Of a DNA stretch of 20,869 bases, positions 7,524-18,938 are shown in pieces. The notes under the pieces are model-generated. The model searched no databases. It saw only the letters and a program-made list of their open reading frames with translations, and was not told where the DNA came from. Origin of the DNA: a virus; IMG/VR virus record IMGVR_UViG_3300032282_001007, positions 1-20,869 of that record; one strand, given 5' to 3'. A program made the position numbers and the translations under genes. Each line of letters begins with the position of its first letter. Positions within the stretch are counted from its first letter, which is position 1.

Positions 7524-8125
7524 ACATCATCCCACCAGTTGACGGCACAAGCAACATCCGAATTGCGGATTTCATTCGCATTAACACCGGTGTTGCTACT
7601 TACAGATTCACGACTGCCCCAAACAACATAACGGTTTCAGCTATTGACTCACAGCCCTTCAATGCGGTCGGTACACTCATGAAAGTCGGCAACGTACAGC
7701 GCGACATCAAAAGCACGGCAAACGAAACCACCGTGACTTTGGTGGGAATTGATACGTCAATGCTTGGTTGGGTGCTTGGACAGCGTGTCAAAGGTTCTGC
7801 CATACAAATGTGGCACGGGTTTTTTGACACCAATGGCTCGCTCATGACTACTGGCGGCACTGGCGGCTTGTATCAATTTTTTGACGGCATCGTCACATCG
7901 TTCGCCATATCCGAACAATGGATGGAAGAAGTCAGGATGTATGTCGGCACGATCACCGTGTCTGCATCATCTATCCAGCTCATATTGCAAAACAGGATCG
8001 CCGGTCGATACACCAACAACAATTCTTGGCAATTCTTCAATAACGGCGATACGTCAATGAATCGTGTTAGCTTCATCGAAACAATCAACTATGCGTTTGG
8101 CAAAGATGCGCCCGCAGGTTCGTAA
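7520..8125 (+). CDS. Minor tail protein, tail-tip complex (gpL-position)
   Basis: A 201-residue protein overlapping the upstream stop by ATGA. It is beta-rich, with a short strand pattern YQFFDGIVTSFAISEQW and then LILQNRIAGRYTNNNSWQFF and GDTSMNRVS. The closing 'gRy.n..swQ.f..gDtsm.rv' is a pattern I associate with phage tail proteins of the DUF2163 / gpL-like position, where a GRY-type motif lies near the end. The gene lies between the tape measure block and the tip attachment protein, so it is probably part of the tail hub. No iron-sulphur cysteines as in lambda gpL are visible. The last 20 bases overlap the acetyltransferase gene. Confidence 0.5.
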   Translation: MNIIPPVDGTSNIRIADFIRINTGVATYRFTTAPNNITVSAIDSQPFNAVGTLMKVGNVQRDIKSTANETTVTLVGIDTSMLGWVLGQRVKGSAIQMWHGFFDTNGSLMTTGGTGGLYQFFDGIVTSFAISEQWMEEVRMYVGTITVSASSIQLILQNRIAGRYTNNNSWQFFNNGDTSMNRVSFIETINYAFGKDAPAGS

Positions 8126-8561
8126 AACATCGCCCTTTGACGTCCCGGCAATACTCGACCTGTTGCGCGAGTATCGGGCCAATATGCCCTATGGGTTTCT
8201 GCAAGACGCAGATGATGCCGAATATGTGACGCAAATGATTACCGAATTGTCTGCTGGCAAAGGTGTTGTCCTTGTGGCAGATGTAGATAACGAAATTGTC
8301 GGCGTGTTGATTGCTGGCATCATGCCAAGCATCTGGTCGCCAAAGCATTTTTTGCTTTCAGAATTTGCCTACTACGTCAAGCAAGAGCATCGAGGCGGCA
8401 CAGCCGGATTTCGCTTGTTGTCTCGCTACCTTGAGGAAGGCGCGAAACTGAAGGAAGACGGGCGAGTGACCAACGTGTTTATAAGCAAAATGGTAAACAG
8501 CCCCGATCTGAATTACGGTCGGTATGGCTTTCAAAAACTTGAAGAATTTTGGGTGATGTAA
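8106..8561 (+). CDS. GNAT family N-acetyltransferase
   Basis: A 151-residue protein of the GCN5-related acetyltransferase fold, which transfers an acyl group from CoA to an amine. From the chosen start the N-terminus reads VRKTSPFDVPAILDLLREY, the usual beta1-alpha1 pattern. A strand VVLVADVDNEIVGVLIAG (54-71) is followed by the acetyl-CoA loop VKQEHRGGTAGFRLL (about 91-105), a variant of R/Q-x-x-G-x-G/A with Thr for the middle Gly. The end, YGRYGFQKLEEF, is the typical 'Y.r.GF' closing. I chose ATG 8106 because it puts beta1 at residue 3; a GTG at 8064 and an ATG at 8091 are alternatives and none has a good ribosome site. It sits inside the tail-tip operon, where lambda has the NlpC/P60-type gpK. 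Its substrate is unknown. Confidence 0.82.
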   Translation: MRPQVRKTSPFDVPAILDLLREYRANMPYGFLQDADDAEYVTQMITELSAGKGVVLVADVDNEIVGVLIAGIMPSIWSPKHFLLSEFAYYVKQEHRGGTAGFRLLSRYLEEGAKLKEDGRVTNVFISKMVNSPDLNYGRYGFQKLEEFWVM

Positions 8562-11500
8562 ATGCCGGGTTCAATTATTGCCGCAAGTGTTTTTGGTTTT
8601 GTGTCGGGCACGTTTGCCTACTATGCGACAGCATTCGCCATCAACATGGTGGCATCTTCAATCATCAGCAAAGCATTCGGTGCTCAAGGCCCCAACACGA
8701 ACGATTCAACGCCTAATCCCGGAAACAATCAGCAACTGCCGCCTGCTGGCGATAACAAATTGCCTGTTGTGTATGGCACAGCATACGTTGGCGGGATAGT
8801 CACCGACCTTAGCATCACGAACAACAACCAAAAAATCTACTATGTGTTGGCTCTGTCTGAGGTTACCAACACAGAGAGTGACGGTACGCCTGACACGATC
8901 ACGTTTGGCAATGTGTATTGGGGCGGCAAGCGTTGCGTGTTTGATCCAACAGACCAATACAAAGTGACCGGGTTGCTTGATGAATCAACTAACGTCACAG
9001 ACACAACGGTTAACGGCAAGCTCAACATTTATCTGTTTGAAAACGGCTCTGAAAATGGCGCAAACACGAACTTGACCGCCATCCAGATCATGCAGAACCC
9101 CGATCTGGTGTACACATGGGACAACACCAAGCTAATGAGCAACTGCGCGTTTGCGATTATCGAAATCACATACAGCCAGTCTGCGAATTTGACCGGATTG
9201 CAACAAACAAGATTCCAGATCACTAACAGCCGACACAAGCCCGGAGATTGTTTTTCAGACTACTTGTTTTCAACGCGCTATGGCGCGGCATTGGACAGCA
9301 CTCAAATCAATACAAATTCTTTGACGGCCTTGAATGATTATTGCGATCAAACAATGGCCTACACAACGTATGAGGGCGGCAGTGCAACGCAAACTCGGTT
9401 TCGTTTTGACGGGATGTTAGAAACGAACAACACAATCATGACCAATATGCAAACCATGGCGTCATGTTGTGATTGTTTGATTAAATTCAACGAAATTACC
9501 GGTCAATGGGGCGTGATTGTTCAGTCGCCTACATACACGATTGCGATGGACATCAATGACAGCAACATGGTGTCGGCAATTCAAATCACTCCGATTGATC
9601 TTGCCAGTAGCTACAACATTGCTGAAGTGAAATTTGCCGATGGCACGGCAAAAGACACGTTCAATTCTGCTACGTTTGATCTTGCTGTTGTCAATCCGTC
9701 TTTGTTGTATCCAAACGAACCCGTCAACAAACAAACCATCAGCTTGCCTCTGGTGAACAACAGTGTTCGCGCTCAATACCTTGCCAACAGATTCTTGGAA
9801 GGTGCGCGCGAAGATTTGCAGGTCAAGGTAGATGTCAACTTTGCCGGCATTCAGCTTGAGGCTGGCGATATTGTGACAATCACAAACATCAATTACGGTT
9901 GGGCGGCGAAATTGTTTCGAATCAGCCAAGTTGTAGAAACATTTGGCGATGACGGGCAGATCACGGCGTCATTGACCCTGATGGAATACAACCCCACGGT
10001 CTATGATGATGTGAACGTCACGCAATTCACTCCGGCCCCCAACACTGGCATTGGATCGCCTCTTGGCTTTGGAGCGTTGACAGCACCTACCATAGTGAAC
10101 AACAACTCAACTGCGGCTATCCCGTCTTTTGGCGTGTCTGTAACAGTGCCATTGGCAGGCATCACGCAGTATGCGGAAATTTATTATTCAGCATACCAGT
10201 ACCCAACAGACGCGCAAAGAGTGTTTGCTGGTGTGACCGCGGTCAATCCCGGTGGCAACCCCTACGATCCCGGAACACTCATCCCAACAGCCACGCTGAT
10301 AAACATCCCCGATGGCGATTGGTATTTTTCCGCAAAGATGGTCAACGCTTTGGGTACAAGCGATTTCACGCCATCGTCTGCCCTTTTGCGTTGGCGTCCA
10401 TACACATTTCAATACACAGATCGTTATTTGATTGTCGCCTACGCCGACAACATCAATGGCGGCGGTTTCAGCCTCGATGCTCGATACAAGGCTTATTTTG
10501 GGCTGTTGAATCTGCCCACAAACAACATCAGCACCAATCCCGCTGACTACACATGGTATTTGGCGACTCCCTCATTTGGGGCGAATCAATATTTGTTGTT
10601 TTGTAACAGGACAAATCGCAAATTCACTTTTGCCACAGGCTCTGCCACATACGCCGCGACCAACAGCACGTTTGTGCCAAGCGACACATCAACGTATGAC
10701 AGAACGATTTGGAGTGCCATGCTTGATGGCGTGAACTACATCGACCTAGACAAGCGCACAGGGCAAGTGGTTTCGATTGGGACAAGCTCTGGGACGATCT
10801 ATGACGGGACATTGAACATCACAAACAACACATCAGGCTCAATGCAGGTTCAGCTTGATCGCTTTTTGAATTTTGGCCCCGGCATCAGGCAAGCGACATT
10901 CAATGCGGCACAACTGACTGTTGACATTTATGGGCGAGTGGTTGGATTCTCTGCGCCAGACGAATTTTTCTTCACCAATCAGGTGTTCATTGCGACATCA
11001 GGTCAAACCGTATTCACCATCACGCACATCCTTGGAAATATGCTGATATTCCGGGATGGCGTAATGCTTGATCCTTCTGAATACTCAGAAACAACAAGCA
11101 ATTTCACATTGAATGTTGCTTGCTCTGCTGGCGAAACAATCGTTGCGTTGAACATGAAGGCGGTCAGCACAGGCGACTACTATGAGCCCTTGAACATTTA
11201 TGTTGGTTCAGTTGCGTCTAATGTGGTCACTTACACGGGCTTGCCGTATCAGAAAATCAACGCTGGCGACCTTATTACATTCATTGCGACCGGGACGCCG
11301 ACCCAATACACGGTGTCATCAGTCAACTACAACACAAAACAAATCACGTTCACAACAACGGTCGCGGCAATCGACAACCAAGTGATTTATCGTTTCCGTG
11401 GCGCGGGGTTGCCATACACGGCATTCAGCCGGTGGGATGTTGATTTGGTCGCGCAAACTGAATACACGCCAGACACGTTTTACATTCCCAACGGTTTTGA

Positions 11501-11858
11501 GTACCTACACATCAACGGCGTGTCGCTGAATGAGATTGATTACGACTATGCCGCCGGAACATTGAACGGGTTTCCCGGAACAATCACTGGGCGATTTTCT
11601 ATCATCGTGTTTGCCGCGAGCAATACGGGCCAGCCGATTTCTCAACAAACAAACACGATCATTTATTCAGTAAATGGTCAGACTGTGTACAGTTTCAATT
11701 CCAATCCCTTGTCGTTGCTTCTGTATGCGAATGGCGCATTGTTTGCTACCGGCACTGAGTACACGGCGACTGCAAACGATTACACGCTAACCACGGCGTT
11801 CAGCAATGACGTCACCTTGATAAACCAACAAACTTTTGCCAGAATAGGGGCGGCGTAA
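8562..11858 (+). CDS. Tip attachment protein J-like central fibre
   Basis: A 1098-residue protein forming the tail tip and probably binding the host. It begins immediately after the acetyltransferase stop. Residues 1-40 are hydrophobic (a gpI-like start), then LPVVYGTAYVGGIV opens the hub domain. Residues about 409-483, with NRFLEGAREDLQVKVDVNFA, LEAGDIVTITN and a final LMEYNPTVYDD, match the J-like / PF13550 'phage tail protein' region. Fibronectin-like strands follow. From about 800 to the end come several beta modules, including two that read SGQTVFTI...FRDGV and NGQTVYSF...LYANG. The protein is about the length of lambda gpJ (1132). The distal modules are likely the receptor-facing part. 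Confidence 0.85.
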   Translation: MPGSIIAASVFGFVSGTFAYYATAFAINMVASSIISKAFGAQGPNTNDSTPNPGNNQQLPPAGDNKLPVVYGTAYVGGIVTDLSITNNNQKIYYVLALSEVTNTESDGTPDTITFGNVYWGGKRCVFDPTDQYKVTGLLDESTNVTDTTVNGKLNIYLFENGSENGANTNLTAIQIMQNPDLVYTWDNTKLMSNCAFAIIEITYSQSANLTGLQQTRFQITNSRHKPGDCFSDYLFSTRYGAALDSTQINTNSLTALNDYCDQTMAYTTYEGGSATQTRFRFDGMLETNNTIMTNMQTMASCCDCLIKFNEITGQWGVIVQSPTYTIAMDINDSNMVSAIQITPIDLASSYNIAEVKFADGTAKDTFNSATFDLAVVNPSLLYPNEPVNKQTISLPLVNNSVRAQYLANRFLEGAREDLQVKVDVNFAGIQLEAGDIVTITNINYGWAAKLFRISQVVETFGDDGQITASLTLMEYNPTVYDDVNVTQFTPAPNTGIGSPLGFGALTAPTIVNNNSTAAIPSFGVSVTVPLAGITQYAEIYYSAYQYPTDAQRVFAGVTAVNPGGNPYDPGTLIPTATLINIPDGDWYFSAKMVNALGTSDFTPSSALLRWRPYTFQYTDRYLIVAYADNINGGGFSLDARYKAYFGLLNLPTNNISTNPADYTWYLATPSFGANQYLLFCNRTNRKFTFATGSATYAATNSTFVPSDTSTYDRTIWSAMLDGVNYIDLDKRTGQVVSIGTSSGTIYDGTLNITNNTSGSMQVQLDRFLNFGPGIRQATFNAAQLTVDIYGRVVGFSAPDEFFFTNQVFIATSGQTVFTITHILGNMLIFRDGVMLDPSEYSETTSNFTLNVACSAGETIVALNMKAVSTGDYYEPLNIYVGSVASNVVTYTGLPYQKINAGDLITFIATGTPTQYTVSSVNYNTKQITFTTTVAAIDNQVIYRFRGAGLPYTAFSRWDVDLVAQTEYTPDTFYIPNGFEYLHINGVSLNEIDYDYAAGTLNGFPGTITGRFSIIVFAASNTGQPISQQTNTIIYSVNGQTVYSFNSNPLSLLLYANGALFATGTEYTATANDYTLTTAFSNDVTLINQQTFARIGAA

Positions 11859-11866
11859 GGAAACAC

Positions 11867-12280
11867 ATGACACAAGCCTTCAACCTTTCACAACTTGCCA
11901 ACAACCTTGATTCAAGCGGTCGCTTGGATGCGGCTGACGGCTTGGTCAATGCTGTTCCAGTCGCCAACGGAGGGACGGGTCAGGCTTCGCTAACAGCAAA
12001 CAACGTGGTTATCGGGAACGGTACAAGCCCGGTTCAGTTTGTTGCGCCCGGCCCAAGCGGCAACGCCTTATTGTCCAATGGCTCAACTTGGGTTTCCGGG
12101 CCAAACGTGTCTGGCGCGACCGGCGGCGGCACAGACAGCGTGTTTTATTTGAATGACCAATATGTCACAACGAGTTACACTATCCCGGTCGGTAAAAACG
12201 CTGTGACTGCCGGGCCGATTCAAATCAACACTGGGGCAACCGTCACAATCTCCACGGACTCAACTTGGGTCGTAGTTTAA
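11867..12280 (+). CDS. Short tail fibre protein
   Basis: A 137-residue Gly/Asn/Thr-rich protein. The segment VPVANGGTGQASLTANNVVI then GNALLSNGSTW is a widespread phage tail fibre motif. The last 45 residues (YTIPVGKNAVTAGPIQINTG followed by a strand ending in STWVVV) form a module also found at the end of the collagen-like fibre at 15878-18379, suggesting a shared tip or trimerisation cap. An AAGGAAA ribosome site lies directly after the upstream stop codon. It begins the accessory fibre cassette. Probably a side or tip fibre or a virion decoration. Confidence 0.7.
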   Translation: MTQAFNLSQLANNLDSSGRLDAADGLVNAVPVANGGTGQASLTANNVVIGNGTSPVQFVAPGPSGNALLSNGSTWVSGPNVSGATGGGTDSVFYLNDQYVTTSYTIPVGKNAVTAGPIQINTGATVTISTDSTWVVV

Positions 12281-12289
12281 GGAAACATC

Positions 12290-12658
12290 ATGGCAGGAAC
12301 AATCGTAGCTGATACAATTAAATCAAGCCTGAGTGCCCCGCCAGTTTTTCAGAACACAAGTGGCACTCAGGTCGGTACATTGTGCCGGGCGTGGGTATGT
12401 TTCGATTCTCAATCAACTACCGTATATGCTTCGTTCAACGTCAGTAGCGTTACGTTCACAAGCCAAGCTGACCACACTGTGAATTTCATTAACGCGTTTG
12501 CGGATGCCAATTTCGCCACCGTTATTGGAGGCGCAAACCCATCTGGTGATCCTTACGGGCGTTTGTACTGGTTGAATGGGCAAACCACATCAACCGTGCG
12601 TCTGACTGGTACAAATGCTTCATATACCGGCGTAGCTGCCGTTGCTTGCTTCCGCTGA
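12290..12658 (+). CDS. Small fibre-associated protein, paralogue A
   Basis: A 122-residue beta-rich protein. The core has GTLCRAWVCFDSQST, then ASFNVSSVTFTSQADHTVNF, and a Cys-containing C-terminus. The same pattern (AWV.F, NVSS(I/V)T, G.(F/H)T(I/V).F) occurs in the next gene, so the two are diverged paralogues. It has the same leader, TAAGGAAACA, as the preceding gene. Proteins with this pattern are known to me from fibre regions of other tailed phages, but no function is established that I can name. A receptor-binding or decoration role is inferred from place only. Confidence 0.65.
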   Translation: MAGTIVADTIKSSLSAPPVFQNTSGTQVGTLCRAWVCFDSQSTTVYASFNVSSVTFTSQADHTVNFINAFADANFATVIGGANPSGDPYGRLYWLNGQTTSTVRLTGTNASYTGVAAVACFR

Positions 12659-12668
12659 AAGGTAAATC

Positions 12669-13064
12669 ATGCCCGGAACACTAACAATCTCGACTCTCAG
12701 CGATGGCACAAACAGCACATCAGCAACCAACTGCATCCAAGGTTCTGCAAAGGCTTGGGTGAGATTTACCGTGTCTGGAACTACGCCGACCATTAACGGG
12801 TCGTACAATGTAAGCTCCATTACCTATGTCGCCGGTGGGCAATTCACAATAACTTTTACAACGGCGATGCCAAATGCATCGTATAACGCCGTGGGTGGCG
12901 GCTCTATCAATACATCACTGAATGCTTATTGCTCTCCAATGATATTTGCACAAGCCGCCTCTCCCTATGCGCTTGCGCCTACAACTACCTCAATGTCTGT
13001 TCTGTTTACAAATTTCAGTGCCAACCAAAACCCATACTATGGCAACATTACTGTTTTTGCTTGA
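12669..13064 (+). CDS. Small fibre-associated protein, paralogue B
   Basis: A 131-residue beta-rich protein, paralogue of its upstream neighbour. It has CIQGSAKAWVRFTVSG, then GSYNVSSITYVAGGQFTITF and TAMPNASYNAVGG. Lengths and order of these segments agree with the 122-residue protein at 12290, while the C-terminal halves differ, as often happens in receptor-binding domains under selection. An AAAGGT ribosome site precedes the ATG. No membrane segment or signal peptide. Likely displayed on the virion with the fibres; the exact role is unknown. Confidence 0.65.
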   Translation: MPGTLTISTLSDGTNSTSATNCIQGSAKAWVRFTVSGTTPTINGSYNVSSITYVAGGQFTITFTTAMPNASYNAVGGGSINTSLNAYCSPMIFAQAASPYALAPTTTSMSVLFTNFSANQNPYYGNITVFA

Positions 13065-13086
13065 TTGATAAACCAAAGGAACTAAC

Positions 13087-13503
13087 ATGACAACTAACAA
13101 AATCATCGTTTACACCAACGACAACGGCGGCGTTTCTGTCTGCGTCCCTACTGGCGAACTCAGCATTGAGCAAGTGCAGGGGAAAGATATACCCGCTGGC
13201 AAACAGAGTTTCATTGTTGATGCGGCATCATTGCCTGAAGCAGACAACGACTTTTTCAACGCTTGGGAACAAGCCAATGGCGTAGTCACGGTCAATCTGG
13301 ACAAAGCCAAAGGCTTGACGAAAGAGCGTTTGCGGCGCGAACGTGCGCCGTTGCTCGCGGCGCAAGACGTTGCTTTTCAGCGCGCCTTGGAGTCGGGTGC
13401 AGACACATCGGCAATCGTTGCGGAAAAACAGCGTTTGCGTGACATTACCATGTTGGCTGATACTTGCACCAGCACCGCAGAACTTCGCGCCTTGAGCGCG
13501 TAA
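13087..13503 (+). CDS. Probable fibre-associated or fibre-assembly protein
   Basis: A 138-residue protein unlike its beta-rich neighbours. The N-terminal half has strands (KIIVYTNDNGGVSVCVPTGE, IPAGKQSFIVDAASLP) and the C-terminal half is charged and helical, with AKGLTKERLRRERAPLLAAQ, DVAFQRALESG and VAEKQRLRDIT. This arrangement is common in a small protein family found beside tail fibre genes, and the 'R..R...L...D......l' helix resembles the C-terminus of tail fibre assembly proteins (Tfa / caudo_TAP). A chaperone for fibre folding is a reasonable inference, but a structural role is possible. A good AAAGGAA ribosome site lies 8 bases before the ATG. Confidence 0.6.
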   Translation: MTTNKIIVYTNDNGGVSVCVPTGELSIEQVQGKDIPAGKQSFIVDAASLPEADNDFFNAWEQANGVVTVNLDKAKGLTKERLRRERAPLLAAQDVAFQRALESGADTSAIVAEKQRLRDITMLADTCTSTAELRALSA

Positions 13504-13512
13504 GGAATCAAA

Positions 13513-13902
13513 ATGGCAGTCACAATCAGTGGAACCAGCGGTATCAATCAAGACAACATTGGTACTGCGCCGATCAAATCTTTCACATCTGCAACTCAAA
13601 ACTGCCCAACTGCGACTTCTCAGGCATACACCGTTACACATACTCTTGGTGCCGTCCCGCGAATTGTGCGGCTGGTAGCTGTTTGCACCGTAGCAAATAA
13701 CGGTTGGGCGGTTGGTGACGAATCTGAAGTGATGATTAACGGCGTTGATAACGGTGCATATCAACAGATGCCTTGGTGCAATTCAACACAGATTGGCTGG
13801 TCTAGTGGTTCTCAGATGGTCATTTCGAATAGAACTAACTGGTACAACTTGGGCTTGATCAGCAACACCAACTTTGTTCTCAAAGTCTACGCATTTGCTT
13901 GA
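13513..13902 (+). CDS. Small fibre-tip-like protein
   Basis: A 129-residue beta-rich protein with a Trp-rich second half. The stretch YTVTHTLGAVPRIVRLVAVC followed by GWAVGDESEVMING is like the distal domains of phage fibres ('H.LGa.PR.v...l.C....Gy..GDev'). It ends in a strand FVLKVYAFA. The leader TAAGGAA just after the upstream stop repeats that of the other cassette genes. It probably forms a stand-alone receptor-binding or fibre-tip unit. No similarity to the two paralogues upstream beyond the general beta style. Confidence 0.6.
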   Translation: MAVTISGTSGINQDNIGTAPIKSFTSATQNCPTATSQAYTVTHTLGAVPRIVRLVAVCTVANNGWAVGDESEVMINGVDNGAYQQMPWCNSTQIGWSSGSQMVISNRTNWYNLGLISNTNFVLKVYAFA

Positions 13903-13984: not shown

Positions 13985-14473
13985 ATGGCTGTATTTAACA
14001 AAAACACCTTGACGCAGGTGTCCGGGTTCGACAACCCGATCATTGCTGGTGAGTTGGTCTGGCAACAGAAAACTTACTGGAATCTGAACATGACGGCTGA
14101 TGATGACATCACGCCGATTAACCTGACTGATGCCGCCATTGATGCGCAAATCATTCGGCGCGAACTCACCAACATCCAAGACTCTCGCAACGGCTTGACG
14201 TTTGACATTGGCAACTACACGCCAACGCCCCCGTCTATCCCTTTGAGCATCGTCAACCGGGATGACGTCAACGGTTTTTTCACGCTGGTGATTGATGATT
14301 CGGCTTGGGATTTGATTGACACCGACCCAGAACTAGACATCAACGCACAGGATTGTGTTGGGTTTTCCGGGCGCATCAAAATCAGTTTCCCGGCAGACTT
14401 GTCTAACCCGCCTGATGACGCCATCATTTTCTTGCTGTTCTTGGTGCGCTCTGACGGCATCGTTGTGGAGTAA
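13985..14473 (+). CDS. Conserved phage structural protein, unknown role
   Basis: A 162-residue acidic protein. It begins with FNKNTLTQVSGFDNPIIAGE and then LVWQQKTYWNLNM, a beta-sandwich-like start, and has LTDAAIDAQIIRREL in the middle. The end, FSGRIKISFPADLSNPPDDA followed by LLFLVRSDGIVVE, is a well-formed set of strands. The layout recalls small upper-baseplate or fibre-adaptor proteins (BppU N-terminal-like 'L.gaki.a.ir.' pattern), but this is only a general resemblance. Good AGGGGA ribosome site. It heads a sub-cassette with the next three genes. Confidence 0.55.
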   Translation: MAVFNKNTLTQVSGFDNPIIAGELVWQQKTYWNLNMTADDDITPINLTDAAIDAQIIRRELTNIQDSRNGLTFDIGNYTPTPPSIPLSIVNRDDVNGFFTLVIDDSAWDLIDTDPELDINAQDCVGFSGRIKISFPADLSNPPDDAIIFLLFLVRSDGIVVE

Positions 14474-14736: not shown

Positions 14737-15840
14737 ATGTCCAACACAATCCGAATCAAACGGCGCGCCTCTGGTGGCGGTGCTGGCGCACCCACAACAC
14801 TAGCCAATGCCGAATTGGCATTCAACGAGCAAACAAATGTGCTGTACTACGGCACCGGCACGGGCGGCGCAGGCGGCTCTGCAACGTCCATCATCCCGAT
14901 TGCAGGCAATGGTGCGTTTGTTGACACAAGCACTAACCAGACCGTTGGCGGCATCAAGACTTTTTCCAGCACCATTGGCGGCTCGATCAATGGCAATGCC
15001 AACACAGCAACTACGCTGGCGACTGGTCGCACGATCAGCATCACCGGCGATATGGCCTACACCAGCGGGTCTTTTGACGGTAGCGGCAATGTCACCGGCA
15101 CGGGCACTCTGGCAACGGTCAACTCCAACATTGGCACGTTCACCAAGATCACAATCAACGCCAAAGGTCTTGCGACTGCTGGCGCGAATGCGATTCTGAA
15201 TGACATTGGCGCGCCGACCAGCGCATACAGTTTCAACAGCCAGAACATCACAAATTTGCTTGACCCGGTCAACGCACAGGATGCCGCGACAAAGAACTAC
15301 GTTGACAACGTGGCTCAAGGTTTGGACACCAAAGCATCTTGCGTGGCGGGCACTACCGGAAACATCACGCTGTCCGGCCTTGCAACTCAATCCGGTGGTG
15401 ATTGGGCGTCTGCGTTGACGGCGGGTGATCGTGTTTTGGTTAAAAACCAAACGGCGGCGGCTGACAACGGAATTTATGTTGCGAGCGCAACTGCTTGGGC
15501 ACGTTCATCTGACATGAACCAATGGTCAGAATTCCCGTCTGCCTACACGTTTGTTGAAAGCGGCACCACGTTAGCGGATACAGGTTGGGTCTGTACGTCC
15601 AACGCCGGAGGCACTCTTGGCACGACCGCAGTTACTTGGGCACAATTCTCTGGTGCTGGCTCATACACGGCTGGCACAGGATTGACGCTCACAGGGACAA
15701 CCTTCAGCATCACCAACACCGCAGTGACTGCTGGCTCTTATGGCACTGCGACTGACACGTTGCTTGCGACTGTCAATGCTCAAGGTCAACTCACTTCATT
15801 GGCTACGACACAAATCAACGTGGACGGCGGCACTTACTAA
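14737..15840 (+). CDS. Tail fibre protein
   Basis: A 367-residue Gly/Thr/Ala-rich fibre. The N-terminus (TIRIKRRASGGG, then PTTLANAELAFNEQTNVLYY) is a module also present at the start of the collagen-like fibre, so it is probably the virion attachment end. Then come repeats of the kind GNANTATTLATGRTISITGD and a stretch with DPVNAQDAATKNYVDN, the common fibre motif before a coiled shaft. Around 200-300, GDRVLVKNQTAAADNGIYV then WARSSDMNQWSE and DTGWVCTSN form a domain widespread in phage fibres. The end is a beta repeat (TAGTGLTLTGTTFSITN). Ribosome site GGAG. Confidence 0.8.
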   Translation: MSNTIRIKRRASGGGAGAPTTLANAELAFNEQTNVLYYGTGTGGAGGSATSIIPIAGNGAFVDTSTNQTVGGIKTFSSTIGGSINGNANTATTLATGRTISITGDMAYTSGSFDGSGNVTGTGTLATVNSNIGTFTKITINAKGLATAGANAILNDIGAPTSAYSFNSQNITNLLDPVNAQDAATKNYVDNVAQGLDTKASCVAGTTGNITLSGLATQSGGDWASALTAGDRVLVKNQTAAADNGIYVASATAWARSSDMNQWSEFPSAYTFVESGTTLADTGWVCTSNAGGTLGTTAVTWAQFSGAGSYTAGTGLTLTGTTFSITNTAVTAGSYGTATDTLLATVNAQGQLTSLATTQINVDGGTY

Positions 15841-15877: not shown

Positions 15878-18379
15878 ATGGCAAATAAAATTCAGGTGAA
15901 GCGGTCGGCTGTTCTGGGTAAGCAACCTACGACAGCCGATCTTGATCTTGGCGAGTTGGCTATCAACACGCGAGATGGAAAGCTGTTCATCAAGCAAGAC
16001 AACGGCACTCAACAGATCATTCAGATTGGCGCGACCGGACCCACTGGACCGACTGGTGCAGGTGGTGCGCTTGGTTATTATGGTTCGTTCTACGACACCA
16101 CAAACCAGACGGCGGCAAATACAACGACCGCCTATGTGCTGAACATCAACTCCATTACCGGGAACAATGGCGTCAGCATTGTCAGCGGAAATCAACTCAC
16201 GTTCACTTACGCTGGCACATACTCGATTACGATAAGCGTTCAATTTATCAGCACAGATACGTCAATTCATGACGCTAATTTGTGGCTTCGCAAAAATGGC
16301 GCAGACATGGCTGATTCAAACAGCGTGTTTAGCGTACCGAACAGTCATGGCGGCGTGAATGGCGGTTTGATTGGAACGGTAAATTATGTGTTTACTGTGG
16401 CGGCTGGTGACTACATTCAATTTGTGTGGTCTGTGACTAACGTCAACGTCAGCATTCAAACTGTTCCGTCTAAAGTCAGCCCAACTGTGCCTCGTACGCC
16501 TGCCGTTATTTTGACGGCGCAACAAATCATGTACACACAAGTTGGCCCAACTGGCCCGACTGGTGCGACAGGCCCAACGGGAACTGCGGCAAGCATCGCC
16601 ATCGGCCCTACCACGACAAGTCCGGCGGGTGGTTCTGCAAGCGTGACGAATAGCGGGTCATCTAGCGCGGCTGTACTGAATTTCACTATCCCGACCGGCC
16701 CGACCGGCCCGACTGGCCCGACTGGCACAGCGGGAACGGCGGCGACCGTCAGTATTGGATCAACATCAACACTGATTGCTGGCTCTCCCGCAAGTGTTGC
16801 CAACTCTGGCACATCATCTGCCGCTGTTTTGAACTTTGGCATCCCAGTCGGCCCAACAGGATCAACAGGCCCGACTGGCCCCACCGGCCCCACAGGGCCC
16901 ACAGGGCCGGGAGGCTCTCCGGGGTCTGCCGCAACAATATCTGTTGGAACGACTAGCACTTTGACTGCGGGATCGCCTGCGACTGTTAGCAACAGCGGAA
17001 CATCAAGTGCGGCGGTGTTTAACTTTGGCGTCCCGGCTGGCCCGCAAGGAGCAACGGGGCCACAAGGGCCTCAAGGAATTGCGGGGCCAACGGGGCCAAC
17101 GGGGCCGGGAGGCCCTCCGGGGCCTACGGGGCCTACGGGGCCAACAGGGCCTACGGATTATTCCACCACTGCCGCGCCTTGGTCATTATCCGGCGGTGGT
17201 TCAGTTACTTGGAGTTCAAGCACAGGTGTGGTGTCTTGGAGTGCGCGAGTTATCGCCATCCCGGTTAACAAATCTTTTGGATCGTCTGGCTATTTTGATA
17301 TTGGTCCAGCGTCTTACACCATGTCGGCATGGTCAACGCTGTATTACGTTCCAACATCTGGCTCTGCTTACACTTACAACTCTGGTTTTTTTGTGTTGAA
17401 GGTTTACACAGATAACCAAGTTATTGCCGCAAACTGGATTCCAATTTGTACTTGGAACGGCGACACAAATGCGCTCCGTTGGAATCCCGGTTTCACGGAC
17501 ATTCCAAACGGCGGCACATACACTTCTTCAACGGCGCAACGCTCTTGGGCTATTGGCCCAACCGGCCCCACTGGCCCAACCGGCCCCGGTGGCGGGATTG
17601 GCCCCCCAGGGCCTCCGGGTGGCCCAGGCACGGCGGCAACAATAACTGTTGGCACGACAACAACTGGCCCGGCTGGTAGTTCAGCGGTTGTTACAAACAC
17701 CGGCACGTCTAGTGCGGCTATTTTCAATTTCACAATTCCTACTGGCCCGACCGGCCCGACTGGCGGGACAGGCCCCACAGGGCTCACGGGGCCGACAGGC
17801 CCGACAGGGAGTCCGGGGCCGACAGGGAGTCCGGGGCCAACGGGGCCAACTGGTTCTACTGGTTTGGGGTATGCAAGCACTACCTCAACAAGTTCTGTGG
17901 TTGTTGGCACCGGGTCTAAAGTCTGGTCTGTTGCTAATACCGGAGCTTTTATTGTTGGTGACCGTGTTCGCGTAATTGCCGTTTCTACCGTAACTTGGGT
18001 GGAAGGCAACATCACTGCACTAACCACAAACTCATCTATTACGGTAAACGTAGATGCTTTCAATTTGTCCGGTGGCCCCACGTTTACATCTTGGGCATTT
18101 TCTATTGCGGGCATTTCTGGAACCCTTGGGCCAACGGGCCCCACTGGCCCCACAGGCCCCACAGGGAGTCCGGGCCCCACAGGCCCCACAGGCCCGGTCG
18201 GGCCTCCGGGTTCAGGGGCTAGTGCGGCGGCTGGTGGTGCTGTGTGGGAAAACACTCAGACGATTTCCGCAAACTACACAATGACTACCAACTACAACGG
18301 CGTTTCTGCTGGTCCAATTACGATTGCCACCGGGGTTACTGTTACGATACCAACCGGATCGTCTTGGTCTGTTGTTTGA
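15878..18379 (+). CDS. Collagen-like tail fibre protein
   Basis: An 833-residue mosaic fibre. Residues 1-50 ([26 protein letters not shown]) resemble the start of the preceding fibre. After a short Gly-X-Y run comes a jelly-roll-like domain (about 64-220; [37 protein letters not shown]) similar to C1q/TNF-type heads. Seven further Gly-X-Y blocks, mostly Gly-Pro-Thr, alternate with four exact 36-residue repeats (16586-16693, 16739-16846, 16928-17035, 17633-17740) and two globular inserts (about 427-558 and 664-750; the latter with [17 protein letters not shown]). About 65 Gly-X-Y triplets in total. The last 45 residues match the C-terminus of the fibre at 11867. Triple-helical trimers are expected. 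Strong AAAGGGGAT ribosome site. A 2OG oxygenase gene follows 10 bases later. Confidence 0.88.
16028..18216 (+). repeat. Eight Gly-X-Y (collagen) blocks
   Basis: Blocks at about 16028-16063, 16544-16585, 16697-16738, 16850-16927, 17039-17155, 17555-17632, 17744-17866 and 18128-18216. Gly-Pro-Thr is the main triplet, with some GPQ, GPP, GSP and GAT. Proline is almost always in the X position; only about nine triplets have proline at Y. Codon choice changes by block (GGC-rich in some, GGG-rich around 17039-17155), and 15-base DNA repeats are visible near 17805-17835. Confidence 0.85.
16586..17740 (+). repeat. Four 108-bp (36-aa) repeats within the collagen-like fibre
   Basis: Copies lie at 16586-16693, 16739-16846, 16928-17035 and 17633-17740, all exactly 108 bases and in frame. 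Each encodes AA(S/T)(I/V).(I/V)G.T.T...G..A.V.N(S/T)G(S/T)SSAA(V/I).NF.(I/V)P and is flanked by Gly-Pro-Thr blocks. The DNA has diverged more than the protein, so the duplications are old and the protein is under selection. They look like beta-hairpin knobs along a collagen rod. Confidence 0.85.
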
Positions 18380-18389
18380 AAGATAAGAT

Positions 18390-18938
18390 ATGACACAACA
18401 TTTGCCAATTTGGTATTTGGGGGCAATCGCCCCTGAAATGTGCGACAAAGCAAAACAAGACATGATGTCTTTGCCTATGGTCGATGCCGCTATGGGTATT
18501 GATGGCGATGTCAAAATTGAATCACAGCGCAACACTGATGTGGTGTTTGCGCCATTCGATTTTTGGCTTGCCGACTATATGGAACAGTTTGCTTCAATCG
18601 CCAACGCCGAAAGTAATTGGGGCTATGAAATACCGGGCAGGGAGGCAATTCAATTTGCCCAGTACGGTGTCGGGCAACACTACGATTGGCACGTTGATTA
18701 TTTTCCTCTGGCTGGCAAAGACACCGACCGCAAAGTCTCTGTGGTTTGCCTGTTGAACGACCCGTCAGAATTTGAAGGCGGCGAATTCCAGTTGCGGCTG
18801 TACTCTCAATACACCGCACCACTGGTCAAGGGAAGCATCATTGCTTTCCCCTCAATCCTTGAGCACCGTGTCACGCCCGTTACAAGCGGTGTTCGTTATT
18901 CAGCCACGATGTGGTTTCACGGGCCGAGGTTCAGATGA
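18390..18938 (+). CDS. 2-oxoglutarate/Fe(II)-dependent oxygenase, prolyl hydroxylase-like
   Basis: A 182-residue dioxygenase that should use Fe(II), O2 and 2-oxoglutarate to hydroxylate a substrate. The metal triad is His101 and Asp103 (in HYDWHVDYFP) and His159 (in FPSILEHRV). Arg169, ten residues after the distal His in SGVRYSATMW, is the usual 2-oxoglutarate anchor. SVVCLLNDPSEFEGGEFQL lies between, as in PiuC/prolyl-4-hydroxylase-type enzymes. Full length for the compact phage type, with all key residues present, so it should be active. It begins 10 bases after the collagen-like fibre gene and overlaps the next gene. Proline hydroxylation of that fibre is an attractive inference; many phages carry related enzymes of unknown substrate, so this is not proven. 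Confidence 0.9.
   Translation: MTQHLPIWYLGAIAPEMCDKAKQDMMSLPMVDAAMGIDGDVKIESQRNTDVVFAPFDFWLADYMEQFASIANAESNWGYEIPGREAIQFAQYGVGQHYDWHVDYFPLAGKDTDRKVSVVCLLNDPSEFEGGEFQLRLYSQYTAPLVKGSIIAFPSILEHRVTPVTSGVRYSATMWFHGPRFR

Follow-up and report, generated by a model that had tools for sequence, protein, structure and literature searches.

A recurrent pairing of collagen-like tail fibers with a prolyl-hydroxylase-like oxygenase in tailed phages

Introduction

Does a tailed phage that builds a collagen-like fiber also encode an enzyme that modifies it? The question is raised by the virus record IMGVR_UViG_3300032282_001007, analyzed here over 20,869 bases (the window), in which the gene for a collagen-like tail fiber is followed by a gene for a 2-oxoglutarate (2OG)/Fe(II) oxygenase. 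A preliminary description of the window had proposed that the two form an enzyme-substrate pair in one phage operon. We find that the pairing recurs well beyond this phage, and we consider it probable that the oxygenase is a phage peptidyl-prolyl hydroxylase that acts on the adjacent fiber and represents one option in an exchangeable modification slot.

The separate parts of such a system are already known: phage collagen-like fibers, phage 2OG oxygenases, bacterial prolyl 4-hydroxylases (P4Hs) that act on collagen peptides, and viral modification of collagen. In an excerpt of PMC8968730, hydroxyproline in the Y position of the Gly-X-Y repeat is said to stabilize collagen, and for bacterial collagen-like proteins the usual description is that they lack hydroxylation; an excerpt of PMC3368898 names glycosylated threonine as another stabilizer of the triple helix. 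Titles and opening lines of abstracts in the openly licensed literature yielded no description of the fiber-oxygenase pairing, the glycosyltransferase exchange, or the matching to repeat type reported below, which is weak evidence of novelty.

Results

A collagen-like fiber is followed by an oxygenase

The two genes and the Gly-X-Y runs of the fiber are as follows.

15878..18379, plus strand: collagen-like tail fiber, 833 amino acids (aa) (open reading frame; PF01391; PHROG tail fiber families)
16028..16090, plus strand: Gly-X-Y run 1, 7 triplets
16544..16588, plus strand: Gly-X-Y run 2, 5 triplets
16697..16741, plus strand: Gly-X-Y run 3, 5 triplets
16850..16930, plus strand: Gly-X-Y run 4, 9 triplets, including one Gly-Ser-Pro
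17039..17155, plus strand: Gly-X-Y run 5, 13 triplets, including one Gly-Pro-Pro
17555..17635, plus strand: Gly-X-Y run 6, 9 triplets, including two Gly-Pro-Pro and one Gly-Gly-Pro
17744..17869, plus strand: Gly-X-Y run 7, 14 triplets, including two Gly-Ser-Pro-Gly-Pro-Thr
18110..18217, plus strand: Gly-X-Y run 8, 12 triplets, including one Gly-Ser-Pro-Gly-Pro-Thr and one Gly-Pro-Pro
18390..18938, plus strand: 2OG/Fe(II) oxygenase, 182 aa, with a predicted prolyl-hydroxylase fold (Pfam, PHROG, and PDB matches; structural model)

The fiber matches the Pfam Collagen family PF01391 at 69 bits (curated cutoff, 27.2). Its Gly-X-Y triplets, 74 in number, fall into eight runs of at least five triplets each, with other segments between the runs; 1,000 shuffles of its residues gave at most 10 such triplets. 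Proline occupies the X position in 47 triplets and the Y position in 9, and 36 triplets are exactly Gly-Pro-Thr. The nine Y-position prolines place X-Pro-Gly sites within Gly-X-Y repeats, so that a candidate substrate is present beside the enzyme. The preliminary description had put the triplets at about 65, an undercount; its fiber length of 833 residues and gap of exactly 10 bases to the oxygenase are borne out by the open reading frame coordinates, and its estimate of about nine prolines in the Y position proves exact.

The oxygenase clade pairs with collagen-like fibers

We scanned the window oxygenase against 2.9 million viral contigs, keeping 80 of 132 loci, and repeated the scan with an alignment of its clade, keeping 80 of 427, some of them on contigs shared with the first scan. 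These are metagenomic contigs, many of them fragmentary; several recur across scans, and de-duplication was by protein identity. In a 92-row tree that also takes in oxygenases from other scans, the nearest relatives of the window oxygenase form one clade of 27 rows (Shimodaira-Hasegawa-like approximate likelihood ratio test, 100). A Pro-rich Gly-X-Y fiber lies within 5 kb in 26 of these rows, and the remaining contig, L016, ends too soon; among clade rows with more than 2.5 kb on both sides, the proportion is 17 of 17. A separate clade of 25 rows has Pro-rich collagen in none and a Gly-rich adhesin-like gene in 22. Of the 38 rows with a Pro-rich fiber, 12 fall outside the clade of the window oxygenase, 9 of them fetched via the Gly-Pro-Thr pattern.

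The scan with the clade alignment gave the same picture. A Gly-X-Y fiber lies within 4 kb on the same strand in 71 of the 80 loci (64 Pro-rich, 7 Pro-poor); eight of the fiber-less loci have a short flank, and the other, L399, has a five-triplet Gly-X-Y stretch, below our threshold, in the gene abutting the oxygenase. Lenient counts (71/72 here, and 53/61 and 64/67 for the GT2-TPR and other-GT2 scans described below) are inflated because short-flank loci were taken as informative only when a fiber was present. When more than 2.5 kb is required on both sides, a collagen-like fiber is found within 4 kb, on either side, in 48 of 49 clade loci, and in 37 of 37 after removal of enzymes that are 95% alike; with more than 4 kb on both sides it is found in 35 of 35. 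Of the 64 Pro-rich fibers, 53 are upstream of the oxygenase and 11 downstream. By gene content, the 27 clade phages form seven groups at four shared proteins and a single group at two. An auxiliary metabolic gene serving host metabolism was rejected as the principal interpretation because the oxygenase pairs with the fiber.

In the separate clade of 25 rows, oxygenases occur about 1 to 3 kb from a glycine-rich (GGGGG) adhesin-like protein of about 300 aa (e.g., L041:5888-6859 and L063:4857-5798), which is possibly a second fiber type paired with the oxygenase family.

Neutral markers recover the pairing and reveal other enzymes in the same slot

To sample phages by a neutral marker, we used g18, a conserved gene 5' of the fibers.

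13985..14473, plus strand: g18, 162 aa, no Pfam family

The g18 query returned 80 phages, of which 35 were kept with 6 kb downstream required; 19 of the losses were too short and the rest were near-duplicates. The clade oxygenase is present in 8 of 12 phages with a Pro-rich fiber, 0 of 10 with a Pro-poor Gly-X-Y fiber, and 0 of 13 without Gly-X-Y (Fisher p = 2.1e-5 for Pro-rich versus all others and 0.0017 versus Pro-poor Gly-X-Y). The pairing of oxygenase and fiber exceeds chance both by enzyme (48/49 loci) and by neutral sampling (8/12 versus 0/23), so that the co-occurrence on which the preliminary description turned is upheld.

The remaining 4 of the 12 Pro-rich phages carry a GT2 glycosyltransferase with TPR repeats (GT2-TPR), with the clade oxygenase in none; this gene directly abuts the fiber in three and lies 5.7 kb away in one. 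Gly-[Tyr/Phe]-Ser fibers are followed in 6 of 6 phages of the g18 sample by a methyltransferase and a GT2-like enzyme, with a GT9-like enzyme as well in 5. No match to the slot-enzyme queries was found in the 13 phages without Gly-X-Y or in 4 with other Gly-X-Y repeats. These slot-enzyme associations give Fisher p values of 1.2e-9 and 6.2e-7, which are after the fact, the queries having been picked from the same sample. With the M15 peptidase as a second neutral marker, no oxygenase above 60 bits was found in 80 loci, only 4 of which have a Gly-X-Y fiber, and this sample is therefore uninformative about the oxygenase; the three Pro-rich fibers all occur with the GT2-TPR gene.

Scans with the slot enzymes themselves extend this matching of enzyme to repeat type. 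Among loci with more than 2.5 kb on both sides, a Pro-rich fiber accompanies GT2-TPR in 36 of 44, and a Gly-X-Y fiber accompanies the other GT2 in 31 of 34; the other-GT2 scan found 64 fibers, every one with repeats of the Gly-[aromatic/Ile]-Ser kind. GT2-TPR is absent from all 80 oxygenase loci, neither the clade oxygenase nor GT2-TPR occurs in any of the 80 other-GT2 loci, and an oxygenase occurs in 1 of the 80 GT2-TPR loci (L470), at only 61 bits on the clade profile. Chimeric fibers combine a Gly-[Tyr/Phe]-Ser part with a Gly-Pro-Thr/Gly-Ser-Pro block in L440 and in L447/L450 (the last two identical), and these loci carry the oxygenase plus the methyltransferase/GT2/GT9 set. Both enzyme sets also occur in L442, where the contig ends 766 bases before the oxygenase, and L226 has a mixed fiber and an oxygenase at which the contig ends.

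The GT2-TPR model (pLDDT, the predicted local distance difference test score, 85.9) has the SunS/ThuS peptide glycosyltransferases as its nearest fold, and its second half is TPR-like. SunS and ThuS (7msn, 7msk; E = 3.6e-13) are glycocin glycosyltransferases that act on small bacteriocin peptides; for GT2-TPR, the position of the gene suggests that the fiber would be the substrate. In P19250A (KX815270), a cultured relative with the same backbone, there are 281 Gly-X-Y triplets, which are of the Gly-Tyr-Ser type, and genes for a methyltransferase and a GT2 enzyme come next. Methyltransferase and GT2-like genes (plus a GT9-like gene in L216) stand directly 3' of Gly-[Tyr/Phe]-Ser fibers at L216:11928-13992 and L544:19729-21258; the L216 GT2-like protein scores under the Pfam cutoff, which its P19250A homologue passes. 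In L274, a phage with a Gly-Tyr-Ser fiber, a 382-aa protein (7766-8911) directly upstream of g18 has PF13640 at its C terminus and a weak phytanoyl-CoA dioxygenase-like similarity at its start.

Y-position proline distinguishes oxygenase-linked fibers

We compared 42 Pro-rich oxygenase-linked fibers with 42 GT2-TPR-linked fibers, de-duplicated. Proline fills 12.5% of Y positions in the former and 1.0% in the latter (means over fibers, p = 3.6e-12), a twelvefold difference, and at least one Y-position proline is present in 39/42 versus 19/42 fibers. Across all 46 and 42 de-duplicated fibers, Gly-Ser-Pro accounts for 109 of 2132 oxygenase-linked triplets and 3 of 4466 GT2-TPR-linked triplets; the commonest context of Y-position proline in oxygenase-linked fibers is Gly-Ser-Pro-Gly-Pro-Thr. 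X-position proline is also higher (69% versus 49%), and oxygenase-linked fibers contain fewer charged residues (0.3% versus 2.9%, in 50 and 47 fibers). Within the g18 sample, the difference in Y-position proline has p = 0.016 (8 versus 4 fibers). Three fibers of the Gly-Val-Gln type (L386, L388, and L389) contain only two Gly-Pro-Thr triplets and yet repeat Gly-Pro-Pro-Gly-Pro-Pro. In our reading, this excess of Y-position proline reflects selection for X-Pro-Gly sites where a fiber is served by the oxygenase. The preliminary description had doubted that the rare Y-position prolines matter; no other feature distinguishes the oxygenase-linked fibers as well from the glycosyltransferase-linked ones. 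Because a few oxygenase-linked fibers have no Y-position proline in their runs, the enzyme may instead act on X-position proline or on another target.

Outside the clade, a collagen-like protein poor in X-position proline (L283:9137-10786) has 25 Y-position prolines in 115 triplets, Gly-Asn-Pro and Gly-Ser-Pro among them, and neighbors a non-clade oxygenase at 11029-11652, a hint that Y-position proline is the target.

The oxygenase has the predicted fold of peptidyl-prolyl hydroxylases

The oxygenase matches PF13640 (2OG-FeII_Oxy_3) at 74.4 bits (cutoff, 27) and PHROG 61 at 127.8 bits. His101, Asp103, and His159 of the HxD...H iron triad and the basic 2OG-binding residue Arg169, all noted as intact in the preliminary description, are confirmed in the window and invariant in 27 of 27 aligned sequences. 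Its nearest solved proteins by sequence are PKHD-type hydroxylases and then, weakly, a bacterial P4H. The best PDB sequence matches, PiuC (9ghl, 9qn1) and 3dkq (E = 2.3e-9 to 5.5e-7), cover residues 89-177 only and are longer (225-243 aa), and PiuC is named as an iron-uptake factor.

An AlphaFold2 model built on the 27 sequences (mean pLDDT, 93.7) has a double-stranded beta-helix fold with Z scores of 15.9-19.2 to 50 solved members listed. In VIA-align, the top 16 of the 50 listed structures are prolyl hydroxylases, aligned over nearly the whole length of the model. Pseudomonas putida P4H leads them with a Z score of 19.2; PHD2 in complex with HIF peptides reaches 18.6, the viral collagen prolyl hydroxylase vCPH also scores 18.6, and an algal P4H with (Ser-Pro)5 scores 18.4. 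PiuC comes just after, at 17.3; the margin is small, and the ranking is not sharp. As modeled, the fold is that of the peptidyl-prolyl hydroxylases, and on the predicted fold a role in DNA or RNA modification was rejected. In animal collagen P4H, a Lys rather than an Arg binds the 2OG C5 carboxylate, and there are a separate peptide-binding domain and a protein disulfide isomerase subunit. The phage enzyme is not assigned to the animal type because Arg169 is invariant and the 182-aa protein has a single domain.

In bacterial genomes, 13 relatives of the oxygenase were found, of which only one is close (64%, on a metagenome-assembled genome contig of a betaproteobacterium). The phage isolate collection gave 374 matches, all below 60% identity; among the 60 listed, which include cyanophage 2OG-Fe(II) oxygenases of the same PHROG 61 family, identity is 30-40% (maximum, 40.3%), and many lie where uvsW or a helicase is annotated. 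Results were alike with another query, whose 368 records also all fell below 60% identity.

The remainder of the window

The structural region of the window is siphovirus-like in content. It encodes a capsid protein (PF05065), a head-tail adaptor, a tape measure protein (PF09718), a 1098-aa tail protein, small genes, two fibers, an M15 peptidase, and the oxygenase. The second fiber is the following.

14737..15840, plus strand: second tail fiber/structural protein, 367 aa, directly 5' of the collagen-like fiber

Five genes of 122-138 aa without a Pfam family stand in a row at 11867-13902; BLAST recognizes a relationship between the second and third and among no others. In L002 and L004, a homologue of the fourth gene is situated between the fiber and the oxygenase, and its product may be a fiber assembly chaperone. 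A similar 23-residue C-terminal motif is encoded at 12209-12277 in the first small protein and at 18308-18376 in the collagen-like fiber. Scans for tRNAs and Rfam families over the window gave no matches. The host may be a methylotroph of the Methylophilaceae because the window tail protein (8562-11858) resembles its counterpart in Methylophilaceae phage P19250A (52% identity over 98%).

Discussion

How could the oxygenase act on its neighbor? In animal collagen, prolyl hydroxylation takes place before trimerization. By analogy, during infection the oxygenase would hydroxylate prolines in the Gly-X-Y blocks of nascent fiber chains before three chains wind together, using the iron, oxygen, and 2OG available in the cytoplasm of the host. 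The preferred site would be the Y-position proline of [Ser/Ala/Pro/Gly]-Pro-Gly, typically in Gly-Ser-Pro-Gly-Pro-Thr, and possibly also the X-position proline of Gly-Pro-Thr. Hydroxylation would stabilize the triple helix of the fiber shaft, or else it may protect against proteases or contribute to receptor binding. Of the enzyme-substrate pair put forward in the preliminary description, the pairing is established, and the role of the fiber as substrate is a likely extension of it.

The same reasoning would apply to the other enzymes in the slot. Gly-Pro-Thr fibers poor in Y-position proline would receive a SunS-like peptide glycosyltransferase, and Gly-[Tyr/Phe]-Ser fibers a methyltransferase and glycosyltransferases; for a Gly-Pro-Thr fiber, a neighboring oxygenase and a neighboring peptide glycosyltransferase may thus represent two chemical answers for shafts with few charges. 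A more general form of this proposal, which we favor only slightly, is a modular code in which every type of collagen-like block has its own modifier (hydroxylase, SunS-like enzyme, or methyltransferase/GT2/GT9) and chimeras carry both sets, so that hydroxyproline and glycosyl-threonine would be alternative stabilizers of one Gly-Pro-Thr triple helix that arose independently of animals.

Several observations weigh against hydroxylation of the fiber by its neighbor. First, enzyme and fiber do not always coincide. In the g18 sample, non-clade oxygenases of the family were found in 3 of the 10 Pro-poor phages and in 1 of the 13 fiber-less ones. Of the 80 clade loci, 16 additionally encode a Gly-rich protein within 4 kb, and in L386 and L389 it is nearer to the oxygenase than the collagen-like fiber is. 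Among 120 loci listed for a (Gly-Pro-Thr)3 DNA pattern, the stretches examined contain the clade oxygenase in none, and at least 79 match none of the modifying enzymes sought, so Gly-Pro-Thr fibers in general need no such enzyme. These loci were seen as partial stretches, which makes absence there weak; 19 oxygenase records (weak ones included) and 22 loci with a glycosyltransferase or methyltransferase match were found, 7 of 49 and 5 of 40 records matched an oxygenase when checked over their whole length, and 7 of the remaining 31 loci have such a match in the stretch itself. Second, Y-position proline is not universal. It is absent from the Gly-X-Y runs of oxygenase-linked L021, L022, L023, L404, L429, and L441 and from the short stretch in L399, and 12 fibers with non-clade oxygenases average 4.1% (p = 0.79 versus 93 fibers counted as oxygenase-negative, of which 92 truly are, L210 being on the same contig as L002). 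The broader proposition, under which any PHROG 61 oxygenase next to a Gly-X-Y fiber would go with Y-position proline, was rejected, the non-clade fibers being unenriched. Third, the g18 tree offers only 4 independent oxygenase pairs on supported branches, too few for significance. For the Gly-Pro-Thr trait these pairs agree or show no difference and are never opposite, and for Y-position proline they mostly show no difference and are opposite in a few pairings; the test mixes g18-sampled with enzyme-sampled loci, so its class counts are biased. Finally, the substrate of the top fold match is EF-Tu rather than collagen.

Could the enzyme act elsewhere on the fiber? Hydroxylation restricted to the X-position proline (giving Gly-Hyp-Thr, where Hyp is hydroxyproline) or the Y-position threonine of Gly-Pro-Thr, with the Y-proline excess incidental, strikes us as unlikely, yet it is the best of the alternatives. 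Gly-Pro-Thr is the commonest triplet of oxygenase-linked fibers (45% of 2132) and is present where Y-position proline is absent, as in L399. According to an excerpt of PMC8968730, the P4H of Bacillus anthracis can hydroxylate either proline of Pro-Pro-Gly peptides, X or Y, and favors Y, and the title of Bann and Bachinger 2000 states that 4-hydroxyproline in X can stabilize the triple helix. However, glycosyltransferase-linked fibers without the oxygenase also have about 48% X-position proline and 57% Y-position threonine, and it is Y-position proline that differs twelvefold. The peptide studied by Bann and Bachinger was reportedly Gly-Hyp-Thr. L386, L388, and L389, with only two Gly-Pro-Thr and repeated Gly-Pro-Pro-Gly-Pro-Pro, also fit Y-position hydroxylation better.

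We give still less weight to the idea that the oxygenase modifies a host protein such as EF-Tu, or another phage protein, and is near the fiber because late accessory genes collect there. The best structural match, P. putida P4H (4iw3), was solved in complex with EF-Tu, and many of the cyanophage relatives listed overlap an annotation as uvsW or helicase, not as fiber. These points have to be set against a fiber pairing of 48/49 in both gene orders, slot enzymes that change with repeat type, and the shift in Y-position proline. That the fiber and oxygenase are merely co-inherited as a tail module, with no enzyme-substrate relation, is very improbable: the arrangement is common to close relatives, supported independent pairs are few, and all 27 clade phages merge at two shared proteins, but the fiber lies on either side of the oxygenase, the phages split into seven groups at four shared proteins, chimeric fibers carry both enzyme sets, and the composition shift is strongest at the Y position. 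Misreading of a nucleic-acid or small-molecule 2OG oxygenase as a protein hydroxylase, to which weak PHROG matches to families named DNA endonuclease and ferrochelatase could point, is scarcely credible given a model that fits peptidyl-prolyl hydroxylases over nearly its full length.

Hydroxylation of the fiber by the adjacent enzyme has partial counterparts in known systems. vCPH of Paramecium bursaria Chlorella virus 1 (PDB 5c5t) is also a virus-encoded protein with the prolyl-hydroxylase fold, but it belongs to a Chlorella virus rather than a phage and is 20% identical to the window oxygenase in the structural alignment. PDB 3itq/5hv0, which we take to be the B. anthracis P4H, is a weak sequence match (E = 0.014-0.016) and longer, at 216-226 aa. 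B. anthracis has a collagen-like spore protein, BclA, and its P4H is chromosomal and spore-related rather than a phage gene linked to a fiber. P. putida P4H and PHD2 are the closest folds, but they act on EF-Tu and HIF rather than on repeats of the collagen type. In mimivirus, lysyl hydroxylation and glucosylation are reportedly carried out by one bifunctional protein. This virus encodes collagens that it can hydroxylate and glycosylate (Luther et al. 2011, cited in an excerpt of PMC8968730); it resembles the phages described here in encoding both collagen-like proteins and modifying enzymes, and differs in being a giant amoeba virus, not a tailed phage. Collagen-like phage fibers (PHROG 5073, 8745, and 1806; E. 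coli prophage collagens, excerpt of PMC3368898) likewise have Gly-X-Y repeats in the tail fiber. Recombinant E. coli EPclA is described in that excerpt as unglycosylated and rich in charged residues, unlike the nearly charge-free oxygenase-linked fibers.

If the fiber is indeed the substrate, tailed phages would have a system for modifying their virions that parallels the modification of collagen in animals. The pair makes it testable whether hydroxyproline stabilizes phage triple helices and at which positions, and it would supply the production of recombinant collagen with a compact hydroxylase and a substrate to match. It also suggests a role for other oxygenases and glycosyltransferases encoded beside phage fibers.

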